From a virus, in IMG/VR virus record IMGVR_UViG_3300032236_001583, positions 1 through 64,000 of that record: a stretch of 64,000 nt of DNA; one strand, given 5' to 3'. A program made the position numbers and the translations under genes. Shown here piece by piece: positions 35,421 to 54,320 of this stretch (positions within the stretch are counted from its first letter, which is position 1; the number at the start of each line of letters is the position of its first letter). The notes under the pieces were generated by a model. The model had not been told where the DNA came from, made no database searches, and saw nothing but the letters and a program-made list of their open reading frames with translations.

Positions 35421-37253
35421 ATGAGCAAGAAAATATCATACGCAGTAAGGGATTTTGCTAGTTTAAGAAGTGAATTAATCACACTTACATCACAATACTA
35501 TCCTGATTTAATAAACAATACAAATGACGCATCAATATTTTCAGTATTGTTGGATATGAATGCTGCTGTTGCCGATAACTTGCATTTTCATATTGACAGA
35601 GTTTGGCAAGAAACAATGTTAGATTTTGCACAGCAAAGACAATCTTTATATCACATTGCAAAAACATATGGTATTAAAATCCCAGGTAATAAACCATCAG
35701 TAGCGCTATGTGATTTTTCAATTGTTGTTCCAGTAAGAGGTGATAAGGAAGATGAAAGATATCTTGGTTTATTAAAATCAGGTGCTCAAATATCAGGTGG
35801 CGGACAACAATTTGAGACAATGGATGATATTGATTTCTCAGACCCATTTAATAGTGCAGGACAACCAAATAGACTTAAGATACCTAATTTCAACGCTAAT
35901 AATGATTTACAATCATACACAATAACTAAAAGAGAAGCTGTTGTAAATGGTGTTACAAGAGTATATAGAAGAGCTATTACAGATTTAGACCAAAGACCTT
36001 TCTTGAAAATTTATTTACCAGATCAAAATATATTAGGTGTAACATCGGTTATACATAAAGAAGGGACAACATTTGGCGCAAACCCAACATCTGCAGAATT
36101 TTCTTCATCAACAAACAAATGGTATGAAGTTAAATCAATGATTCAAGATAAAGTTTTTGTTCCAGATCCAACTGGCGTATCAGATAGTCATAATTTTAGA
36201 GCTGGAACATATATTACAGTTGATAATAAATTTGTAACTGAACATACACCAAATGATTATTTTTCATTAACATTTGGTTCAGGTAATGTAAATCCATTAG
36301 ATAATTTGGATAATTACATGAATGGCGCAATGAAAGTAAATTTAGCAACTTTCTTAAATAACACATCATTAGGTGCTATTCCTAAAGCTGGAACAACCTT
36401 ATTTGTAAAGTATAGAATTGGTGGTGGTAAAGACTCAAATTTAGGTGTAAATGTTATTAATAGTGTTGACAACGTTGAATTTGATGTTAATGGACCTAGA
36501 GATGATTATAACCAACAAGTTATTAATTCATTACAAGTTACAAATGTTACCCCTGCAGTTGGTGGTGCAGATCAACCAACAATAGAAGAATTAAGAAATA
36601 TGATTTCTTATAATTTCTCAGCACAAGACAGAGCAGTTACATTAAATGATTATAGATCTCTTATTGAGACAATGCCTGCACAATATGGCGCGCCAGCTAA
36701 GGTTAGTGTATTAGAAGAAGATAATAAAATTAAAATTAAATTATTATCTTATGACACAAATGGTAATTTAACTGACACTGTGTCAAATACATTGAAAAAT
36801 AATATTTTAGAATATCTTTCTGATTACAGAATGATTAATGACTATATTGATATTATATCTGGTGAAGTTATTGATTTATCATTAGACATTAGTGTTACAA
36901 TAGACAAAAATGAAAATCCAACAGATGTAATGAGATCAATTATAAGTGGTGCAACAACATATTTTGATACCTCAAGTAGAAAAATGGGTGACCCATTATT
37001 TGTTGGTGATTTCCAAAGAATGGTTGGTCAGATAAATGGTGTTGTGAATGTAACAGAAATTAAAGTTTACAACCAAATTGGTGGACAATACTCATCATCT
37101 GAGGTTGCGCAGAACTATGTTGATCCTGTTACAATGGAAATACAACAAATTGATTCAACAATATTCATGTTGAAAAATCAAATTTATCAAGTTAGATTCC
37201 CAAGTAGTGATATCCGTGTAAGATTCAAGACATTAACAACGACTACATACTAA
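35421..37253 (+). CDS. 6: Baseplate wedge protein gp6-like
   Basis: 610 residues (T4 gp6 is 660). The N-terminal helix FASLRSELITLTSQYYPD, then FSVLLDMNAAVADNLHFHID and a later ALNDYR-type turn (SAQDRAVTLNDYRSLIETMP) mark the gp6/gpJ baseplate family. The protein is the main ring of the wedge and interacts with gp25 and gp53. It follows gene 25 with one base between. Its order, 25 then 6, differs from T4, where the two genes are apart. Confidence 0.9.
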   Translation: MSKKISYAVRDFASLRSELITLTSQYYPDLINNTNDASIFSVLLDMNAAVADNLHFHIDRVWQETMLDFAQQRQSLYHIAKTYGIKIPGNKPSVALCDFSIVVPVRGDKEDERYLGLLKSGAQISGGGQQFETMDDIDFSDPFNSAGQPNRLKIPNFNANNDLQSYTITKREAVVNGVTRVYRRAITDLDQRPFLKIYLPDQNILGVTSVIHKEGTTFGANPTSAEFSSSTNKWYEVKSMIQDKVFVPDPTGVSDSHNFRAGTYITVDNKFVTEHTPNDYFSLTFGSGNVNPLDNLDNYMNGAMKVNLATFLNNTSLGAIPKAGTTLFVKYRIGGGKDSNLGVNVINSVDNVEFDVNGPRDDYNQQVINSLQVTNVTPAVGGADQPTIEELRNMISYNFSAQDRAVTLNDYRSLIETMPAQYGAPAKVSVLEEDNKIKIKLLSYDTNGNLTDTVSNTLKNNILEYLSDYRMINDYIDIISGEVIDLSLDISVTIDKNENPTDVMRSIISGATTYFDTSSRKMGDPLFVGDFQRMVGQINGVVNVTEIKVYNQIGGQYSSSEVAQNYVDPVTMEIQQIDSTIFMLKNQIYQVRFPSSDIRVRFKTLTTTTY

Positions 37254-42662: not shown

Positions 42663-44774
42663 ATGATAGTAAGAAGACAAACAACAGATCAAAATTTAAT
42701 CATTAATACGGAACTTGATTTCCAAACTGACTTGGGTTGGGAAGATAATTTAATGCAATTCGAGGAAGAAATTCTAAATGAGATTATCAACCCAATTGAA
42801 AATTATGAAACAATTAGATATATACATTCGCCATATACGTTGAATGGTATATCACAAACAGATATTTGGTTTTATTTTTATTTTGCTTCTGGCGGAACAT
42901 ATAATCAAAGCTATGAATCAGTTAGTATATCAAATCAAGATAACGAACATTTATTACCACAATCAGTAAAAAGTTTTTTTAGATTAGAATTCTATAAAAC
43001 ACCAGGAATTGTAACAAATAATGTTTTAACATGTGAACCACCAACAAGACAAAATAGAAGATTGGTATTTGCTAAAAATTTATCATTACCAAATGGTGAA
43101 AAAGTATTTGATTCAGTTCTTAATGGACATTTACATATTCCAATATTCACAGGATCAAACTATAGAAATAAAGAAAACATGTATATGTTTTGGTTTGAGG
43201 ATGAATCTGTTTTAACTGAAACTAATTTAAGTGGTAGTACAACTGGGAATACATTCTTTATGACAGCTAAATTCTATGATGCTGAAAATGGTAATATATT
43301 AGATTTTACAAATGATTGTTTTGATACTAGTCATACAGTTAATGAACCAAAAGATATGTATTATCAAGTTGATATTGATAAAGTAAATCACACATATACA
43401 ATATCATATTATGATGGAGTTGTTGAATGCGAACGTGTTGGTACATCACAATTACCAATTAGATTTTTTGAAAAAGGTGGAGCAACATGCCCACCATCAT
43501 TACCATATCATATTTGTAGTGATGTTACCCCAACACCAACATTAACTCCAACTCAAACAGTTACCCCAACTGTCACTCCAACAAATACACCAACACCTAC
43601 CCCAACACAAACATCAGGTGGTGGTTCAGGTGGTGGTTCAGGTGGTGGTTCAGGTGGATCGGGAGGTACATATTACTGGTATGAATTAACTAGTTGTAAT
43701 GATGGAATAACAAAAATAGTTGGTAGAAGTTCACAGTCAATTGATCAGTCACCTATTGTGTATAAAATAAATCAATATGATTGTTACAATCTTACTGGTG
43801 ACGAAGTTGAAACATCATCTTTTTATGATTTAGATCAATATGATTCAACTAATACTTGTTCAGATACGTATTGTATAGCACCAACACATTATACTGTTTG
43901 GCGAGATTGTTTAAATAATTATTGGTATTATCAAGGTGATTATAGTTCTAGAACAACAGGTATTTCATCTGAAATAAATGTTGATAATAATTGTTTATTT
44001 TATGTTGATTACTCAACGTCAACATATGGTGGTACTCAATTATCAACGCCACCGATAGCTGGTGATTGCATGTGCTCAACGCCACAAATGTTTAGTGACA
44101 CAGTACATATTAAAAACAGCTCATCTGATTTTAGTTGTGGTAACTGTGCGGATGTTGCTTCGTTTATTGCAAATGGAAATGCTGAAACATTCTGTTCTTG
44201 TACAACATTTACTGGTTCTGGATTCTCAGGATTGGCAAATGGAACTTACGTTATGTCAAATATTGCATCAAATGCGTATTTCTCAATAACAGTTACATCG
44301 GGTTCTGTTACAATAAATGGTTCTTGTGTTGAACCAATACCATCACCAACATATTATGAATATAGTTTAGGTTCTGGTAGCACAATCGCATTAGCATGCC
44401 CTGCTTCAAGAACCATAAGATATTCAGGTGCTAATTTGTTGGGTTTATATGATAAATTATATACAACAAGTGATTTAAATCCTAGTAATGAAGTTGCAAC
44501 TGGAGTTTACAGCGATGGTATTTCAGCGTACACGTACAATCATGGAACTGGTATAGCTGACTGGTCAGGTTGTAATTTAGATTGTGAATCGTGGAATATT
44601 GTTAATAACGATATGAAATATCAAATACCTATTACTGTTACTTACACTGATTGTAGTAACCAAATACAAACAATTAATTTACCATATGGTGATATGAATA
44701 TTTGCATAAAAGCTGGTACAACTATTTCAGGACCGTCAAGTAGTAGCTTTAATAATTCATATTGTTCTTCATAA
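42663..44774 (+). CDS. Tail fibre-type protein with Thr-Pro and Gly-Ser linkers
   Basis: 703 residues: an N-terminal baseplate-anchoring part (1-285), a Thr-Pro linker (about 288-319, such as [15 protein letters not shown]), a Gly-Ser linker (about 320-337, GGGSGGGSGGGSGGSGG), then a Cys-rich C-terminal part of about 360 residues with several Cys pairs (CMCSTP, CGNCAD, CSC). The last 120 residues contain a domain (LACPASRTIRYSGANLLGLY followed by a turn and YSDG) that resembles the C-terminus of the 1999-residue protein. Such architecture fits a receptor-binding fibre with flexible spacers. It starts directly at the stop of the preceding gene. Confidence 0.65.
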   Translation: MIVRRQTTDQNLIINTELDFQTDLGWEDNLMQFEEEILNEIINPIENYETIRYIHSPYTLNGISQTDIWFYFYFASGGTYNQSYESVSISNQDNEHLLPQSVKSFFRLEFYKTPGIVTNNVLTCEPPTRQNRRLVFAKNLSLPNGEKVFDSVLNGHLHIPIFTGSNYRNKENMYMFWFEDESVLTETNLSGSTTGNTFFMTAKFYDAENGNILDFTNDCFDTSHTVNEPKDMYYQVDIDKVNHTYTISYYDGVVECERVGTSQLPIRFFEKGGATCPPSLPYHICSDVTPTPTLTPTQTVTPTVTPTNTPTPTPTQTSGGGSGGGSGGGSGGSGGTYYWYELTSCNDGITKIVGRSSQSIDQSPIVYKINQYDCYNLTGDEVETSSFYDLDQYDSTNTCSDTYCIAPTHYTVWRDCLNNYWYYQGDYSSRTTGISSEINVDNNCLFYVDYSTSTYGGTQLSTPPIAGDCMCSTPQMFSDTVHIKNSSSDFSCGNCADVASFIANGNAETFCSCTTFTGSGFSGLANGTYVMSNIASNAYFSITVTSGSVTINGSCVEPIPSPTYYEYSLGSGSTIALACPASRTIRYSGANLLGLYDKLYTTSDLNPSNEVATGVYSDGISAYTYNHGTGIADWSGCNLDCESWNIVNNDMKYQIPITVTYTDCSNQIQTINLPYGDMNICIKAGTTISGPSSSSFNNSYCSS
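43525..43665 (+). repeat. Thr-Pro then Gly-Ser linker coding repeats
   Basis: Imperfect ACACCAAC-type repeats encode the Thr-Pro linker, and tandem GGTGGTTCAGGT units encode Gly-Gly-Ser-Gly spacers. Confidence 0.85.
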
Positions 44775-44815: not shown

Positions 44816-47800
44816 GTGAAAAGGACAAAATATACCATAAGAAGAGATACTATCGTCACAGGTTCGTTAATCGATACCACAACACATTCGTGGTTAGATG
44901 GTGATGGTAATATAGTACCTTGGGTATCTGGTTCCGTAGATATGTCACCTGCAACTGGTAGTGTTTTATATAATGTAAACACTTCAGGTAGTTTAGTTGA
45001 AGGATATTACAAATATAATGGTAATATTTGGTCACATGTTTCATCCAGCGTTGATTTATATCAAGACATTAATTTACCTATTTTATTAACTGCAACTGCA
45101 GATGAGTCAGGTCCAATGGTTGACTTTGATGGTGATATACAACACAACTACATTACCGCAAATTTCATGTATGAAATTAATGGTACAACTGTCACAGTAT
45201 TTAATACCACAACTCATCAAGTTCAAGATGTAATTAATGCAAATCCATCATTATTGAATGATGTTGTGTTTACAATTAATTGGGGCGATGGTACAACAGA
45301 TACGATTGGTAGATATGGTACCGCAACACATACATATAGTGAGATAGTTAATCAAAGGGTTTCAATAACAATGAATTCACCATACATTGCAAATACTGTT
45401 GATAAAGTAATTGCAATTGAAGGATTCTCTACGCCAACTCCAACTCCAACTATAACACCTACACCAGCAGCAACATCGGAACCAACTCCAACACCAACAA
45501 ACACATCAACACCAACAGTAACACCAACTGTTACACCAACAAATACAAACACACCTACACATACTGCTACACCAACTGTAACACCAACAAATACGCCAAC
45601 ATCAACAGCTACTGTTACACCAACGGCAACTGTAACCCCAACAAACACGGCTACAGTAACACCGACAAACACAAATACACCAACAAATACACCAACTGTT
45701 ACACCAACAAATACCGCAACACAAACTGTAACACCAACCAATACAGTCACACCAACAACAACACCTACACCAACTATCCAATGTTATTTTGGTATAGATG
45801 TATCTGTATTGGCACCAACTCCGACACCAACTACAACTGTAACACCAACAGCGACTGTAACACCAAGTATAACACCAACAAATACCAATACACCAACTGT
45901 AACACCAACTCAAACACCTACGCCAACTATTCTTTGTTACTTTGGAATTAATGTAAGTGTTCTTGCACCTTCACCGACTCCAACAACAACAACAACACCA
46001 ACAAACACCGCAACGCCAACTGTAACACCAACAAATACGAATACACCAACTGTAACGGCTACGAATACTGCGACACCAACAGTTACACCAACTCAAACAC
46101 CAACACCAACTATCCAATGTTATTTTGGTGTAGATGTATCGGTATTGGCTCCAACACCAACTGCAACTCCAACAATGACTGTTACACAAACACCTACAAT
46201 GACAGTCACACCAACGAATACTGCTACACCAACAAATACTGCCACACCTACAATGACTGTAACACCAACAAATACGGTTACACCAACAACAACAGTTACG
46301 CCAACTAATACTGTAACTCCGACAATGACTGTTACACCAACAGCAACAAATACTCCAACACCAACAATATTGTGTTATTTTGGTATCAATGTGTCAGTAT
46401 TAGCACCAAGTCCAACACCAACTAACACGCCAACACCGACGAATACTGCTACACCAACAAATACAGCAACACCAACGAATACTGTAACAGCAACACCAAC
46501 AAATACGGTTACACCAACTAATACTGTAACTCCAACACCTACAGTTACACCAACAGTAACTGTTACACCTACGAATACTGCGACAGCAACGAGTACACCG
46601 ACTCCAACACCAACAGTTTCTTCTGGTTATTGTGGTGATTGTACTTCATATGATATTGTTATAACATCGCAAGATTTGGCTGCAAGTCAAGATGGTAAAG
46701 TTTATGTTTATTATTACCCTTGTGGAACATATACAGGTGATATGGATTATTTAATATTTGCTAACCCAGGAACATATAACAATTATATATGTGCACAAAA
46801 TTGTGCTAGCCAATCACCATATATTTGTGTGACAACAAATGAAGGATGTAATATTGCAAGTGGAGGATCAACATTACTTCCTTTAAGCGGTAACTGCGCA
46901 ATTTCATATAATGCAGCGACAACAGTTACATGTAGTGATTCAACAGATTACACATTCACAATAGAAAGACCAGGATATACACATATTAATACTAAGTTTG
47001 ATTTAGGTCAAACATATGGTAATGTTCAGGTAATAATAAGTGGTTTATCATATAATTCATATAATGAAATATTTGTTGGTAACTACGCAGAAAAAATAGG
47101 TAACACATACACATCAAATGCGGGTAATATTACAATAAATGGCTCAAATGGTATCGTAGGTTTCTATAGTTCAGACGGTAAAACAACTGTAGACGTTGTT
47201 GTATATTCAACAGGCACAAACGGTATTTTCATACCATATGATATAAATGTAACTGTTGGTTGTCCTACTACTTTAGATTGTGGTACCAATTTACCAGTAC
47301 AAACATATGTGACAGGAACTCAAATTAATATAACCGATACTGGATATATTAAGTATGATACTGAATCTAGTACAATTTACAGATTTGTTTCTTCAACTGG
47401 AATGCATAGAATAGATGATTGTTTCATATATGAATCATTAGAACCAGGTGTTCCTTATACTGATACCGCAGCATTCACAATACTATACAGTGGTAATACA
47501 TGTAACACTGGAACTGATGATTGTCTAGAAATTACATTTGTTTCTAATAATACTTCAGATGTTAGAGTTGGATGGACAAGCTGTGTTGGTTCTTGGAGAA
47601 CTAGAATATTAACACCTGGTGAAATATTTACAACTTGTGGTATTAAAAATAGTGGATATGTGGTTGATAGTTCAGATAATGTTTCAATTTCACAAGGAGC
47701 AGGTTGTAGTGGTACAATAACACCAGCAGATATATATTACAATGACGCAAACGCTGAATATCATTTAAATGCGTGGTTTACAAATGTTAAAGATAATAAC

Positions 47801-48010
47801 AACATTTGTCTTGGTTACCCAATCAGCTTCTACTATGTACCAGGATTAAATTTATTTGATCCACCAAGATACATATTCCAGGATGCTAATGGTACAACAC
47901 CATTCCCATACAATTACGTTGCAATCTCATCATTTGGATTTGTATATGGATATGAATATAATAAAACAACTGGTGAAGTTGGATTACAAACATACACATG
48001 TTTAAATTAA
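44816..48010 (+). CDS. Tail fibre-type protein with a 400-residue Thr-Pro region and four CYFG modules
   Basis: 1064 residues from a GTG start. An N-terminal domain (1-205), a Thr-Pro-rich region (about 206-602) interrupted by four copies of a module of the form I(L/Q)CYFG(I/V)(N/D)VSVLAP, and a Cys-rich C-terminal domain (about 603-1064) starting [12 protein letters not shown]. The modules alternate between Q...D and L...N forms. The same module recurs in the 1999-residue protein. The Thr-Pro stretches are predicted to be extended and the modules beta strands, so the whole may be a long fibre with regular nodes. Thr-Pro regions are also possible glycosylation sites. The alternating modules and the GTG start are the oddities. 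Function inferred from composition and context. Confidence 0.65.
45430..46620 (+). repeat. Thr-Pro repeat region with four CYFG modules
   Basis: CCAACA/CCAACT-type hexamer repeats, with modules at about 45775-45830, 45928-45980, 46108-46159 and 46363-46412. Copies differ at many synonymous positions, so protein sequence rather than DNA is conserved. Confidence 0.85.
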
Positions 48011-48017
48011 TTGAAAA

Positions 48018-48305
48018 ATGAGTACACCCATATTAATACCGCAAACAAGTCAAAATTTTGGTAAAGTAAATAAAATTATTTGGTTCAATGTTTCAGATGT
48101 TGATGGTACTTTTAGTCTCAATTTGCACATTACACCAAGCCAAGTTGCCAACACCACAATTTCAATATTTAATCAAGGAAATAAAATTGAGGTTTTCAAT
48201 AGAACATACATAAAGTCCTCAAATAATGATATTATTAATGAGACAGTAAAAATTAGACACACCCCTGGTCTAGATTCAAATATATATGGGATAAAAACCA
48301 TTTAA
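48018..48305 (+). CDS. Small virion-associated beta protein
   Basis: 95 residues, beta-rich (TFSLNLHITPSQVANTTISI). It starts seven bases after the previous stop and is followed 15 bases later by the giant fibre gene. Position between two fibre genes suggests a fibre chaperone, clasp or small structural component. No family recognised. Confidence 0.5.
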   Translation: MSTPILIPQTSQNFGKVNKIIWFNVSDVDGTFSLNLHITPSQVANTTISIFNQGNKIEVFNRTYIKSSNNDIINETVKIRHTPGLDSNIYGIKTI

Positions 48306-48308
48306 AAG

Positions 48309-48316
48309 TAATTATA
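48309..48316 (+). promoter_or_regulatory. Variant late-type motif TAATTATA, 4 nt before the giant fibre gene
   Basis: TAATTATA-gtta-ATG; one mismatch to TATTTATA but with the same 4-nt spacing and the same spacer as at 37302-37305. Confidence 0.4.
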
Positions 48317-48320
48317 GTTA

Positions 48321-51300
48321 ATGAGTAGTTCGTTTGACATTAGTTGTACAGTTCAAGGCGCAGCGCCAGACAATTTAGCCCATGAATGTGGTCTTACTAA
48401 GACGCTTTCGTGGACAGGTAACGGCACTCATTCCGGATTATCATTTTATTTAATTCACACCCAATTAAACAATCTTACACCAAGGTACGTTTTTAAAAAC
48501 CCAAAGTCTTCTAAATTAATTAAATTTATATTTTCATCCAATTCATCTGTTAACGCAAAAGTAAGGGTAAAATATAATATTGATGGTGTTTTAACCGTTA
48601 GGGATGAATATGACCTTTCAGCATTAACAACAAATGTTGCAAAATACCATGAGTTATTAATTGATAATGACATTAAGTCTAATGCATTTATAATTTTAGA
48701 TGTAATAACTAGTGACAATAATGCAGGTACAATTAGTGTAAATTTAGATTGCGATCCTCAAATTGTGTCAGCAAATTTCTGTTATGGATACACAAATTCA
48801 TCACAGTATTGTTCGGAATGTCCACAAACAATTACATTATATAGAGAAAAAAGTTCTAATAGTAATATAAGTGGTTTAATAAATGTAAACGTTGACAATT
48901 TTTCACCATATAGTGATGGTCCATGGTATAATGATGCTGATCTTCAAGTTGAGGCGGACGATACTATTTTTTATACATACAAAGTTAGTGATAACAATAA
49001 AAGAAGCTATTATTCGTATAGTAAAACAACACACAAATTTAATTTAGAAGGTAGCTGTTTAGGTGGTAAGTATACATGCGGAAGTGACACTATTTCACAA
49101 ACAAACTTAGTTTCTGATTATACACAAACAAATCCATATTTACCAAATACTCCAAACGTAAAATTAAACGGATTAATATATTCTATTAAAGAATTTATTT
49201 TTGAGTTACCAACTAAAAATAGAATTGTTCCAATTACAGTAACAACATCTGGAACTAAAAGAGATTTTGCATATATTATTACTGACGCAGTTAATGGTGA
49301 TAGAGTTGGTAATGTTAGTTATGGTAATAGTTATAACGATCCATATTATAATGCTTGTACTGAGCTGAATTTATTTAGAAATCAAACACAACAATATTTC
49401 ACAACAAATAGTGGTTACATAAGAGTTAGAATTGCGATCGGACAAAATAAAGGATTTAATGGTTCAGCTGTAACATGTTCTGTTAATGTTGGTTGTGGTC
49501 AGGAAATATATGGTTATGAAATGGGTGTTCATCCATATTCACCATATGATGCAAAAAATAACCCAAGAGTTGTGACCACATTATGGTCTACAACACCAAT
49601 AGCATCATGGTCGGGATCAACATTAAGTAGTACTAATCCAAATGATAATCCATATGTCACAAATGGTACATATGTATTCAATGATGGAATATTAACTAAT
49701 AGAGCTTTACCTTGGTATTATGCGACATATAATACGTCAATTAATCAAAACATATATCAAATAGGTAACGCTGTTAATAGATCATATGGTATTAAAATAG
49801 ACAAACAACTTACAAAACATGGAATTTTTGGTAGCACAAATGTGAGTGATATTATTAGTGGACCAAAAGACTGGACAAATGTTGTTCATAATGTACCATA
49901 TGTTCCAGCATGTATTGAACCAGCAATTGTTGGCGTTGGTGTTGTAAATAAAATTTTAACAAGTGCTGATATTAAAAAACCATCAGCATATTCGTACCTA
50001 TTAGGTATGGGTACAATAGGAGCACCACCACCATTCCAAATTTCAGCAAATGATGGATTTTTCACGTTTTACAATTTCAATGATTCAACAAATACACCAA
50101 TAACTGGTTTTGAGCATTTAGCGGATAAAATGGGTATTGCATATGGTAGAGCAACAAATAACCCAACATACATTAAAGCAATACAAGACGGTCTTGGTAG
50201 AAGTATTGCGTTAGGCGGATCAGCTGCTGCCACATTTACATTAGTTTCAATTTGGGGAACGGAAGTTGCAAATGATTTTGCTTGGTTAGTTGCGACTATA
50301 TCATTTTGGGCTATCGCAGTTGTTGCGCTTGTAGCAACTATTTGGGCTATATTTTCAACATCATCTAGAACTTTAATACAAAATTGTAAACAATTTTATA
50401 AAAAATATACTGGTGAAAATTCACCGTACATGGCAACGGGAGTTACAATATATGACGATGTTAATTTGTCAAAATATACAGCAGACAGAAATTATTGTGA
50501 TGGTGCATATTATTATACGGTACCTTCTAATACAACTGATGGTAAAATTACTAATAAGCAATTAGCATATAAAACAATTAACAATGTTAAAACGTATACG
50601 TTAAACATCTTTAATTCAACAGATGGATCACAAGAATATATTACTGATTTTTCCAAACTATTCTTTTTAGCATATGTTGCCGGTTACCCTGAAAAATACA
50701 CAACACAACCAACTGAATATACTAATGATTCAACATCAGTAACAATATTACAAAGTAGTACTATAACAGGTGAATTAAATAATCCAGTTCCAATTACATA
50801 TCAAATACCTGCTGGTACATTTACATCAACAGATTCTGTAAATGATGCCAATGCTGAAGCATTAAAGTATTTAATAACTTTAACTGGGTCTACTTACGAT
50901 AATGTTTTTTCAACAGAACCAAAACCTGGTATTGAAACTGTAAATTTAATTTTTACACATGAAATTAAAGTTGAAAACGAACCAAATCTATTTTTAACAT
51001 ATTATAACAATAATGATACAAATGGTATAACTATTGGTAAAAAAATCTATTATGATATAAATGGTGATAGTTCAGTTTTAGATGGCTATTATTCCGAAAT
51101 TATTGGCGGATCATATAGAAAATTTTATAAAACATCTGGTGGTACTGTAGTTGATATTATAATATGGCAAAATAGTTCTGACACAACTGCAACTGGTTCT
51201 TTAGGTACATACAGTGTAAGTACAAGTAATCAAGATTACACAAGTGTATGGTATATAACTGATTACAATTTGAGTGATATTGGTTTAAGTTTATATAATA

Positions 51301-54300
51301 ATTTAGATAATTTAATAAATGATTGGAATACATCAACATTTTACAGTAATAGTAAAATAAGAAGAGGTTTTATACAAACTAGAGAAACTGCAGAAACTTT
51401 ATATCTTTATGATAGTAATGAAAATTTAGATTCATATACTGAAGGTATTGAAAATATTTATCGAGAAATTTATCCATTTGATTCATTACCTTTTACATAT
51501 CATAAAGCACATACGTTAACAATTGTACCATACGAAGTTTGTGATCTAGATTTAGTTCAAAATGGTATTAATTTCAATATATACGATGCTAACGGTAATC
51601 CATCACCATCATTTGTTGGCGTAACATTTAGCGTAGACGTTTATACTTATAATACTTTTTTATCAACGTACACAATAACAATAGGTCCACACGATAATTC
51701 ATATTTTTTAGAATTAGATATTCCATATACTGGGCATACAGTTACTGATGTTAATAACTTTACGTATATATCACCAAACCCATATAACAAAACAACATTT
51801 ACTAATGGTACGTTAGTACAAAATAATGGTGTTTCACCTTGTGATTTTTACATTAACACAAATTATATTGTGGATTCATTTGGATATGTTCAATATGATA
51901 GTTTTGATGTCGATACTCACAATGTAACAACTATAATTAATAATTTAACTGAAGGTATATATAGCATTTCTACACCAATTGTTTATGGCTCATTAATGCC
52001 AGTAATTGACACTAACACATATTATCCAGCAGCAAATATTAGAATTATTGAAACTGGAGATTGTTATGTTGAGGTTTCATTAACACCAACACCAACTCAA
52101 ACAAATACTGCGACTCCAACAGTAACACCTACTAACACACCAACACAAACTGTTACGCCAACTAATACTAACACTCCAACACCAACAAATACACCAACAC
52201 CAACAATATTGTGTTATTTTGGTATTAATGTGTCTGTATTAGCTCCAAGCCCAACACCGACAATGACTGTCACACCAACAGCAACTGTTACACCAAGTAT
52301 AACACCAACAAATACTATTACACCTACAATAACACCAACAAATACACCAACACCAACAATATTGTGTTATTTTGGTATTAACGTATCGGTATTAGCACCA
52401 ACCCCAACACCAACTATTACGTCAACACCAACAATGACGATGACTCCAACAAATACGTCAACACCAACTAACACACCAACAATAACAGCAACCCCAACAT
52501 CAACTGTTACTCCAACCCCAACACATACACCAACACCAACAATATTATGTTATTTTGGTATTAACGTATCGGTATTGGCCCCAAGCCCAACTCCAACAAA
52601 TACAATAACACCAACACCAACACATACGCCAACTAACACACCGACAAACACGTTTACACCAACCATTACACCAACACATACGCCAACATCAACACAAACA
52701 CAAACACCAACCAACACACCGACAAACACGTCAACACCAACACATACACCAACACCAACACCATCATTACCGGCGTTAAGTGTTTCAGTTTCAAGTTCGT
52801 CAATACAATCTTGTTTCAATGTCAATGATGCTTCATTTACATTAAGTGCGAGTGGTGGTAATGGTGCACCATATGAATATTCTATAGATGCTACTAACTG
52901 GCAAGCAAGTGCAACATTTAGTTCTTTAGCTGGAACATCATATACGGGTTATGTTAGAAATAATAATAGAACAGGAACAATAGCTTCAGTATCTGTTGGT
53001 AGTTTAAGTAGAAGTGCACCAAGCGTAAGCATATTCAAATCTAGTTATAATGGTTACAATATTTCATGTAACGGCGGTACAGACTCAATTGTAGTATCTG
53101 GATTTACAGGCGGACAGGGTGCACCATATTCAGTTAAATTAAATTCTGGTGGAACGTATCAAACAACAACTACATCTAGAACATACAGTGGTTTAGCGGC
53201 TGGAACATATAATGTTTATGTTAAAGATTCTGTTGGTTGTGAAAATATAATATCAGTAACATTAACACAACCATCGGCTGTTAGTGCGTCTATTTCAAGT
53301 AGTACACAACCAACATGTTATAATGGATCTAATGGTTCGGTTACTGCAACAGCTTCAGGTGGTGTTGGTGGATATACATATTCATTAAATGGCGGATCAT
53401 ACCAAGCAAGTGCCACATTTAGTAGTTTACCAAATGGTTCATATTATATAACAGCTAAAGATGCTAATGGTTGTACCGCAACATCATCAACAACGACATT
53501 TGCAGTTACTGCTCCTAATGCAACAATTACACCACAAAGTGTTAGCTGTAACGGTGGATCTGATGGTGCAATAGTAGTTATAGGAGGTTCAGGTGGTTCA
53601 GGATCTGGATATAGTGTATCTATTGATGGATCAAGTTATTATACGATATCTGCAACTCAACAAAAAACATTTGGTTCATTAAATGTTGCAGGTAATCCAT
53701 ATACAATTTATGTTCGAGACGGATCTAATTGTATACAAGCATACAGTGTAAATGTGACGCAACCAGCTGTAAATACTGCATCAATATCAATTGTTAGTTA
53801 TGATACCGGTACTAGCAATGGTCAGTTAAATTTAACATCAACCGGCGGTACATGGCCTAAAACTTATAGATTATATAAAGATTCAACAACACCATATAAT
53901 GACTTTACAGCTAGTAGTTTAGTTGCAACATTTACAGGTGTAACATCAAGTTCACCAACAGTTACCGCAACTGGTTTATCATATGGTTATTATTGGTTAA
54001 CATTAACAGATGCAAATGGTTGTGTGGCACAAAGTGCAACAGAAACTGCATTATTAAATTACACATATGTTGGTAATTATAGATCTGCAGCTACAGTAGC
54101 TTGTGGAGATACAACATCCCCATTATATAATGTTTATTTAAGTAATTTTGATTATTCAACATATACGTCTAATGCTAATTCATTAACATCTGGTATGACA
54201 ATATACTCAACAAACTCAGGTGGTTTATGGAGTGGTGGAGCACAATTATATGATCCAAATAGTGGTAGCGTATTTAAAGTATCAAGTACTGGTCTACTTA

Positions 54301-54320
54301 GCTCATATCAAAACTGTTAA
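48321..54320 (+). CDS. Giant tail fibre/adhesin-like protein with SprB-type repeats
   Basis: 1999 residues, the largest product here. Parts in order: N-terminal beta domains (1-620); two hydrophobic stretches (about 632-655, and 653-678 with [20 protein letters not shown]) that look like a membrane hairpin; a DUF5977-like segment ([20 protein letters not shown], about 815-835); a Thr-Pro region with three CYFG modules (1254-1483); SprB-type repeats (about 1490-1820, units such as [17 protein letters not shown] and [20 protein letters not shown]); and a C-terminal domain ending in Cys. SprB repeats are known from the Flavobacterium gliding adhesin. Probably a receptor-binding fibre, possibly one that inserts into or mimics the host surface. 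Confidence 0.7.
52083..52770 (+). repeat. Thr-Pro repeat region with three CYFG modules
   Basis: Modules at about 52202-52250, 52354-52403 and 52537-52586, all of the L...N form, separated by Thr-Pro stretches of unequal length. Confidence 0.85.
52780..53770 (+). repeat. Tandem SprB-like repeats
   Basis: About four divergent repeats of roughly 75-80 codons, each with a Cys-Asn-Gly-type start, an SGG turn, a Tyr-containing strand and a closing V-x-D-x-x-G/N-C. Recognisable at protein level; too divergent for a DNA repeat. Confidence 0.75.

Follow-up and report, generated by a model that had tools for sequence, protein, structure and literature searches.

What does a short cysteine-bearing peptide do when it recurs along Thr-Pro stretches of the kind that are readily dismissed as disordered filler? 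The question arises from a 64,000-base stretch (positions 1 to 64,000, hereafter the window) of the 67,925-base IMG/VR virus record IMGVR_UViG_3300032236_001583, where such a module recurs in two large genes, gene 1 and gene 2. Here the filler shows a grammar, with conserved nodes under selection and a spacing that is graded. The reading that we favour—at a probability of roughly 0.38—is that the module forms self-associating beta nodes along a long, adhesin-like rod. New here are the near-perfect Thr/Ser alternation of the linkers, the restriction of module spacings to values ending in 1, 5 or 9 and the rise in spacing from N- to C-terminus.

An earlier note on this DNA had counted seven copies of a 12-residue module, and the count holds: four copies lie in gene 1 and three in gene 2, all within Thr-Pro linkers (Table 1). 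Five copies fit the 12-residue consensus at 12/12 positions and the other two at 11/12 and 10/12; a six-frame scan of the window gave nothing above 7/12 beyond them and the window shuffled by triplets, 10 times over, nothing >6/12, which excludes chance as the source of the seven. The conserved unit is 14 residues long, roughly [IVT]-x-C-x-F-G-[ILV]-[SNDG]-[VI]-x-V-[LI]-x-P, and adjoins TPTPT.

Pattern scans of IMG/VR, together with profile or sequence searches that used module-free regions, gave 55 module-bearing open reading frames (ORFs). From these, 36 were removed because their array duplicates another's, leaving 19 non-redundant Thr-Pro arrays (three of them single-module), in which 34 different peptides make up 70 modules, in homologs of both gene 1 and gene 2. 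The module is thus conserved in relatives, which is where the earlier note had placed the test of its own claim. One pattern scan returned 19 stretches, 13 of them inside Thr-Pro ORFs and the other six looking like chance; another returned 36, of which 20 came from contigs or loci already found and 16 were new (11 with array-type modules, four with a single variant each and one, L084, without a module in a Thr-Pro ORF); in a further scan 19/19 stretches were arrays already known. Among prokaryote genomes, GTDB contigs gave 15 module-pattern stretches with a readable match in seven, and 7/7 of these lay in ORFs without TPT. We define the CxFG class as a node ending in Pro and flanked by Thr-x linkers, a description that fits the 70 modules in the 19 arrays. 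Position 7 is I/L/V in 70/70, position 9 V/I in 69/70, position 11 V/I/L in 70/70 and position 12 L/I/V in 70/70, under a regular expression that itself required C, F, G and P plus an aliphatic choice at positions 7, 9, 11 and 12 (Ala/Met at some) and excluded Phe there, so that the single-copy variants described below fall outside the set; position 8 is S/N/D/G only.

The two genes come together in a 2228-residue protein of the 79,750-base record G001, where 14 modules separate an N-terminal domain 54% identical to that of gene 1 from a C-terminus that matches gene 2 (161/312 residues identical, 52%, 1e-62) and, compared with gene 1, is not of gene-1 type. A search of this record, run with no positive control, did not find the gene-2 N-terminal domain, and fusion through the arrays would be the simplest account of the composite protein. 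Within the window, genes 1 and 2 have the same module version. Copy 4 of gene 1 is closest to the gene-2 copies, at nucleotide identities of 0.81-0.88, and the gene-2 copies among themselves give 0.84-0.88; the likeness of copy 4 to the gene-2 copies points to exchange between the genes. The alternation of Q/D and L/N forms that the earlier note saw in gene 1 stands as an order of copies, but the two-module period that it took from this does not survive at the DNA level, copies 2 and 4 being the least alike of the 21 pairs (nucleotide identity 0.64), and a two-module tandem period in gene 1 was rejected.

As uncorrected proportions, synonymous (pS) and nonsynonymous (pN) differences between copies were 0.611 and 0.084 within proteins (164 pairs), 0.635 and 0.300 between proteins (2251 pairs) and 0.652 and 0.075 among the seven window copies. 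With synonymous sites near saturation and the peptide held, selection acts on the peptide, as had been argued from codon usage in the window and as codon identity against shuffles bears out; the pN/pS ratio is not uniformly low (0.81 in L078 and 0.48 in L019, with few changes each). Across 14 arrays, codon identity at shared residues equals that of shuffles in G001 (0.468, shuffled 0.483, n = 1192, for near-identical peptides), window gene 1, L015, L021 and L051, falls on the borderline for L049, L073, L082 and window gene 2 (P 0.06-0.07), and exceeds shuffles in L009, L018, L019, L078 and L094, which have duplicated more recently. That the window copies are not recent duplicates accordingly stands for gene 1 (0.479, shuffled 0.511) and less so for gene 2 (0.69 versus 0.58, P 0.07), whose copies are not supported as being of great age.

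These proportions also bear on a somewhat unlikely alternative, that the module is a peptide for docking, whose beta-strand would complete a sheet in one partner from phage or host, or in an adjacent domain of its own protein, with repetition as multivalency. Copies alike within a protein and versions that differ between phages, at similar synonymous divergence, are what would be expected if all copies tracked one partner, and the shared version of the two window genes would fit as well. Against this, synonymous sites near saturation make ages not comparable, and these numbers are also explained by lineage-specific duplication under purifying selection; the five arrays whose codon identity exceeds shuffles retain signs of recent duplication in their DNA, and no partner has been identified, none having been searched for.

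The 51 linkers between modules carry Thr/Ser at 1391/1395 alternate positions and, because of this alternation, all 51 spacings are odd. Their last digit is 1 (n = 17), 5 (n = 30) or 9 (n = 4), never 3 or 7; there are 14 distinct values, all ending in 1, 5 or 9, in arrays of which related ones are not independent. Two candidate sources of these digits found no support: a 10-residue linker unit in the window or G001 (lag 10, z 0.4 in the window and 1.8 in G001) and random steps of 2, 4 or 6, whose sums give no preferred last digit. The dominant lag is six residues (z 5.0 in the window, 10.0 in G001), and lag 10 is raised across all 51 linkers (z 5.1). Linker 1 aligns gap-free across window genes 1 and 2, L015, L051 and L049.

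From N- to C-terminus, spacing steps run 24 up, one down and 10 equal, which 0/20,000 permutations reach; without G001 and with one representative per clade, P is 0.0013 for a typical choice and 0.028 for the most even choice. The 14 modules of G001 are spaced at 41,51,51,51,65,75,75,55,95,95,99,109,119 (Spearman 0.958), a gradient that 0/100,000 permutations of this array alone reach. All these tests use the data in which the gradient was spotted, and homologous arrays share spacing, so they do not amount to 14 independent observations. Arrays on which several contigs agree are unlikely to be assembly errors (L020/L021/L024/L025, L019/L023/L033, L051/L062/L065/L067 and L078/L083); the window and G001 arrays come from one record each, with longest exact repeats of 27, 51 and 35 bases.

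For the gradient there are three candidate causes: locking of register, graded unfolding and an inherited history. Inherited history belongs to an account that we consider distinctly improbable, in which the repeat is unconstrained and slippage of short units lengthens the linkers, carrying the modules with them. In 12/14 arrays (not in L049 or L051) there are more exact 18-base repeats than in synonymous shuffles, a result that also rejects avoidance of DNA repeats; the window has short tandem periods and 153/183-bp periods, homologous arrays have their spacing in common, and P reaches 0.028 for the most even representatives. On the other side stand the module peptide held at near-saturated synonymous sites, the permutation result for G001 alone and the C-terminal copies of G001, which are not younger (codon identity 0.44 in copies 9-14, 0.49 in copies 1-8), values that do not support a simple age gradient as the cause of the spacing gradient in G001. 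More improbable still is graded unfolding in a sacrificial-bond spring, with modules stacked within the chain and linker loops opening one by one under load, in order of length. Near-identical nodes separated by loops graded as above (41 to 119 in G001) are what such a spring would need, but the array model has no confident stacking and proline-rich linkers are stiff.

For the node itself, the hydrophobic odd face and the restricted position 8 would suit either a strand or a hairpin of the tight kind. The beta node proposed earlier is in keeping with the residue pattern, but the array model (predicted local distance difference test, pLDDT, 49) is too weak to choose between the two and does not show it. 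The claim that the module is no described domain holds within Pfam, the Protein Data Bank (PDB), GenBank phages and the literature searched. Four module peptides had no Pfam family at E 10, and the module profile met nothing significant among PDB chains, where the only match (6s2x, ChiA, E 0.1) was taken as chance. GenBank phages gave no match for gene 1, for the module (BLAST low-complexity filter on) or for window positions 30000-54000 as DNA; the C-terminal part of gene 2 (residues 1503-1902) matched a single uncultured phage, of 642 kb, at 34%. Literature searches, on which its absence from print rests, returned no description of the module; a paper that they did return concerns Bacteroidetes toxins near SprB-repeat genes and not this module (PMC7073777).

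The C-terminal parts of gene 2 (E 6.1e-11) and L015 contain the SprB repeat (PF13573), in a region apart from the module; the module does not match the SprB Pfam profile and is not itself such a repeat. For G001 and L009, Pfam at E 0.001 reported no SprB. Thr/Pro-rich interdomain linkers exist elsewhere, for example in cellulases, and are likewise low-complexity Thr-Pro spacers, but the linkers here are strictly Thr-alternating, and conserved Cys nodes interrupt them at spacings that obey rules. The T4 fibritin foldon is a trimerisation element of a phage fibre and so resembles the node function proposed for the module, but it is single and terminal whereas the module forms an array.

We infer that the module is a small beta element with a Cys, set at intervals into extended rods of Thr-x-Thr-x, mostly Thr-Pro. 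The two proteins that contain these rods are probably tail fibres or adhesins, and their genes lie downstream of those for the baseplate wedge. The array would be an optional spacer that links the N-terminal domain to the C-terminal region (SprB- or cadherin-type in gene 2) and holds the adhesive end at a distance. Nodes would most likely associate between neighbouring identical chains, tying the rods together through a buried face of F, I/V/L, V and V with the single Cys packed or crosslinked. Arrays would grow by duplication of module-plus-linker units, the linkers lengthening toward the C-terminus, and unequal spacing could serve to keep identical chains in register. If nodes do tie chains, they would offer a simple modular route to fibres of great length, an idea that the spacing rules open to direct testing with short peptides. 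An extension of it we regard as unlikely: that nodes of the types CxFG, C[DNT]LGG and LDC..(A/V)TF make up a general class, Cys-led and of beta structure, on the Thr-Pro rods of environmental phages, where graded, quantised spacing would be a built-in ruler by which identical parallel chains lock in register only, and that the module arrays of genes 1 and 2 would also be fusion joints.

Relatives of the two genes bear on the spacer role. A gene-2 profile search gave 20 loci, 17 with modules (on contigs already found by the other scans); in L061 and L064 the sequence stops at or before the linker, and in L063 the N-terminal domain is joined, as judged by eye, to SprB-like sequence with linker and module both missing, which fits an optional spacer. 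Among 22 loci from a gene-1 profile search, three (L095, L100, L111) have CxFG modules, five (L097, L107, L108, L109, L112) have other Cys-led islands, nine (L096, L099, L101, L102-L106, L110) have a linker without a Cys island, and the remaining five have no linker, are truncated or have no Thr-Pro ORF. The ORFs of L102 and L104-L106 are equally long, and that of L103, which a contig edge cuts off, appears to be the same.

A scan free of regular expressions, for islands of 8-40 residues between Thr-x linkers, returned 61 distinct islands, 34 of them CxFG, and no further Cys-bearing island of that size in the ORFs holding the 70 modules. Other Cys islands include LDCVVDVTFTEVFSIP in L061, LDCVVGATFTEIY in L108, L109 and L112, xLDC[EN]FTATFEEYFEL in L107 and [IY]xC[DN]LGGNASYIPP in L097; they have in common a Cys followed by alternating hydrophobics. 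Further Cys-led stretches just ahead of a Thr-Pro linker, such as ENCLFDVVYSVPTPTPT, were seen in L108 (7046-9355), L112 (3775-5829) and L114 (11802-18416).

A CxFG variant, DC[ED]FG[IVF]NV[TF]FFAP (for example PDCEFGINVTFFAPTPTPT), occurs once each in L072, L087, L088 and L090, in ORFs of 433-586 residues for which blastp at E 0.001 gave nothing among the ORFs of the window, apparently a third context, unrelated to genes 1 and 2. It comes directly after a strand-like KAL[VI]RFN[VI] stretch and is followed by a Thr-Pro linker. Since the module evidently does not need an array, we lowered our estimate for the self-associating node to the value given above and raised that for the docking peptide; the variant somewhat favours a docking or capping role.

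Several further observations count against nodes in a fibre, beside the position of that lone variant at the edge of a non-linker region. The nine gene-1 relatives with a plain linker indicate that the rod does not need nodes and that the module is not universal. The array model, a monomer with mean pLDDT 49.4 and so of low confidence, suggests short hairpins rather than a single strand. A role in register does not require monotonic spacing, and equal spacings (45,45,45; 51,51) weaken it. The naming of genes 1 and 2 as fibre genes, as in the earlier note, finds its support in gene neighbourhood and adhesin-like C-termini, but neither gene matched a fibre family: both match only PHROG 15511, of function not known (best stretches 527-795 in gene 1 and 1251-1296 in gene 2, the latter being linker). 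The model of the gene-2 N-terminal domain (pLDDT 68) resembles generic beta-rich folds only, with template modelling scores (TM-scores) <=0.1 over the query among the matches listed, and contains a helical hairpin at residues 617-678 (helices 617-645 and 652-678, in a hydrophobic stretch and partly at pLDDT <50) that is unusual for a fibre.

Table 1. Features of the module-bearing genes and of related proteins. Coordinates are those of the window unless a locus is named; spacings are in residues.
Feature	Coordinates	Strand	Basis
Gene 1, 1064 residues: N-terminal domain, Thr-Pro linker with 4 modules, C-terminal domain	44816-48010	+	N-domain homologs
Thr-Pro linker ahead of module 1, gene 1, 97 residues	45485-45775	+	
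Module g1.1	45776-45817	+	
Gene-1 linker, 37 residues, spacing 51	45818-45928	+	
Module g1.2	45929-45970	+	
Gene-1 linker, 47 residues, spacing 61	45971-46111	+	
Module g1.3	46112-46153	+	
Gene-1 linker, 71 residues, spacing 85	46154-46366	+	
Module g1.4, closest to gene-2 copies	46367-46408	+	
Gene-1 linker past module 4, 71 residues	46409-46621	+	
95-residue ORF between genes 1 and 2	48018-48305	+	
Gene 2, 1999 residues: N-terminal domain of ~1250 residues, linker with 3 modules, SprB-repeat C-terminus	48321-54320	+	
Thr-Pro linker ahead of module 1, gene 2, 43 residues	52077-52205	+	
Module g2.1	52206-52247	+	
Gene-2 linker, 37 residues, spacing 51; gap-free alignment to gene-1 linker 1	52248-52358	+	
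Module g2.2	52359-52400	+	
Gene-2 linker, 47 residues, spacing 61	52401-52541	+	
Module g2.3	52542-52583	+	
Linker leading into SprB region, gene 2, 61 residues	52584-52766	+	
G001 protein, 2228 residues: gene-1 N-terminus, 14 modules, gene-2-type C-terminus	L069 1171-7854	minus	
Single-copy variant ORFs	L072 6691-8400; L087 1033-2751; L088 4684-6441; L090 3-1301 (minus)		

Among the products of window genes are a tail sheath, subunits of the baseplate wedge, a UvsX-like recombinase, a DnaB-like helicase, a primase and a DNA polymerase, a content that indicates a contractile-tailed phage on a T4-like plan. Nearness to baseplate genes, a trait of trimeric phage tail fibres, was found for both gene 1 and gene 2; sheath genes also lie upstream, and three large ORFs without firm assignment separate gene 1 from the end of the baseplate wedge gene at 37253. 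Matches in GenBank were distant, with eight records for the wedge protein (the best an uncultured phage at 29%, with Flavobacterium phages at 27%) and 17 for the DNA polymerase (Salinibacter phages, 24-26%), and a Bacteroidota host is possible.

As to gene 2, a membrane-like hairpin at residues 617-678 would be odd in a tail fibre, and residues 820-859 match DUF5977 below threshold (24.3 bits, cut-off 25), as do L009 and L015. Relatives also show a gap of ~300 bases at the site of the 95-residue ORF. Upstream of gene 1, a 703-residue ORF at 42663-44774 has a Thr-Pro stretch, without the module, and then a Gly-Ser run (TCAGGTGGTGGT x3.7).

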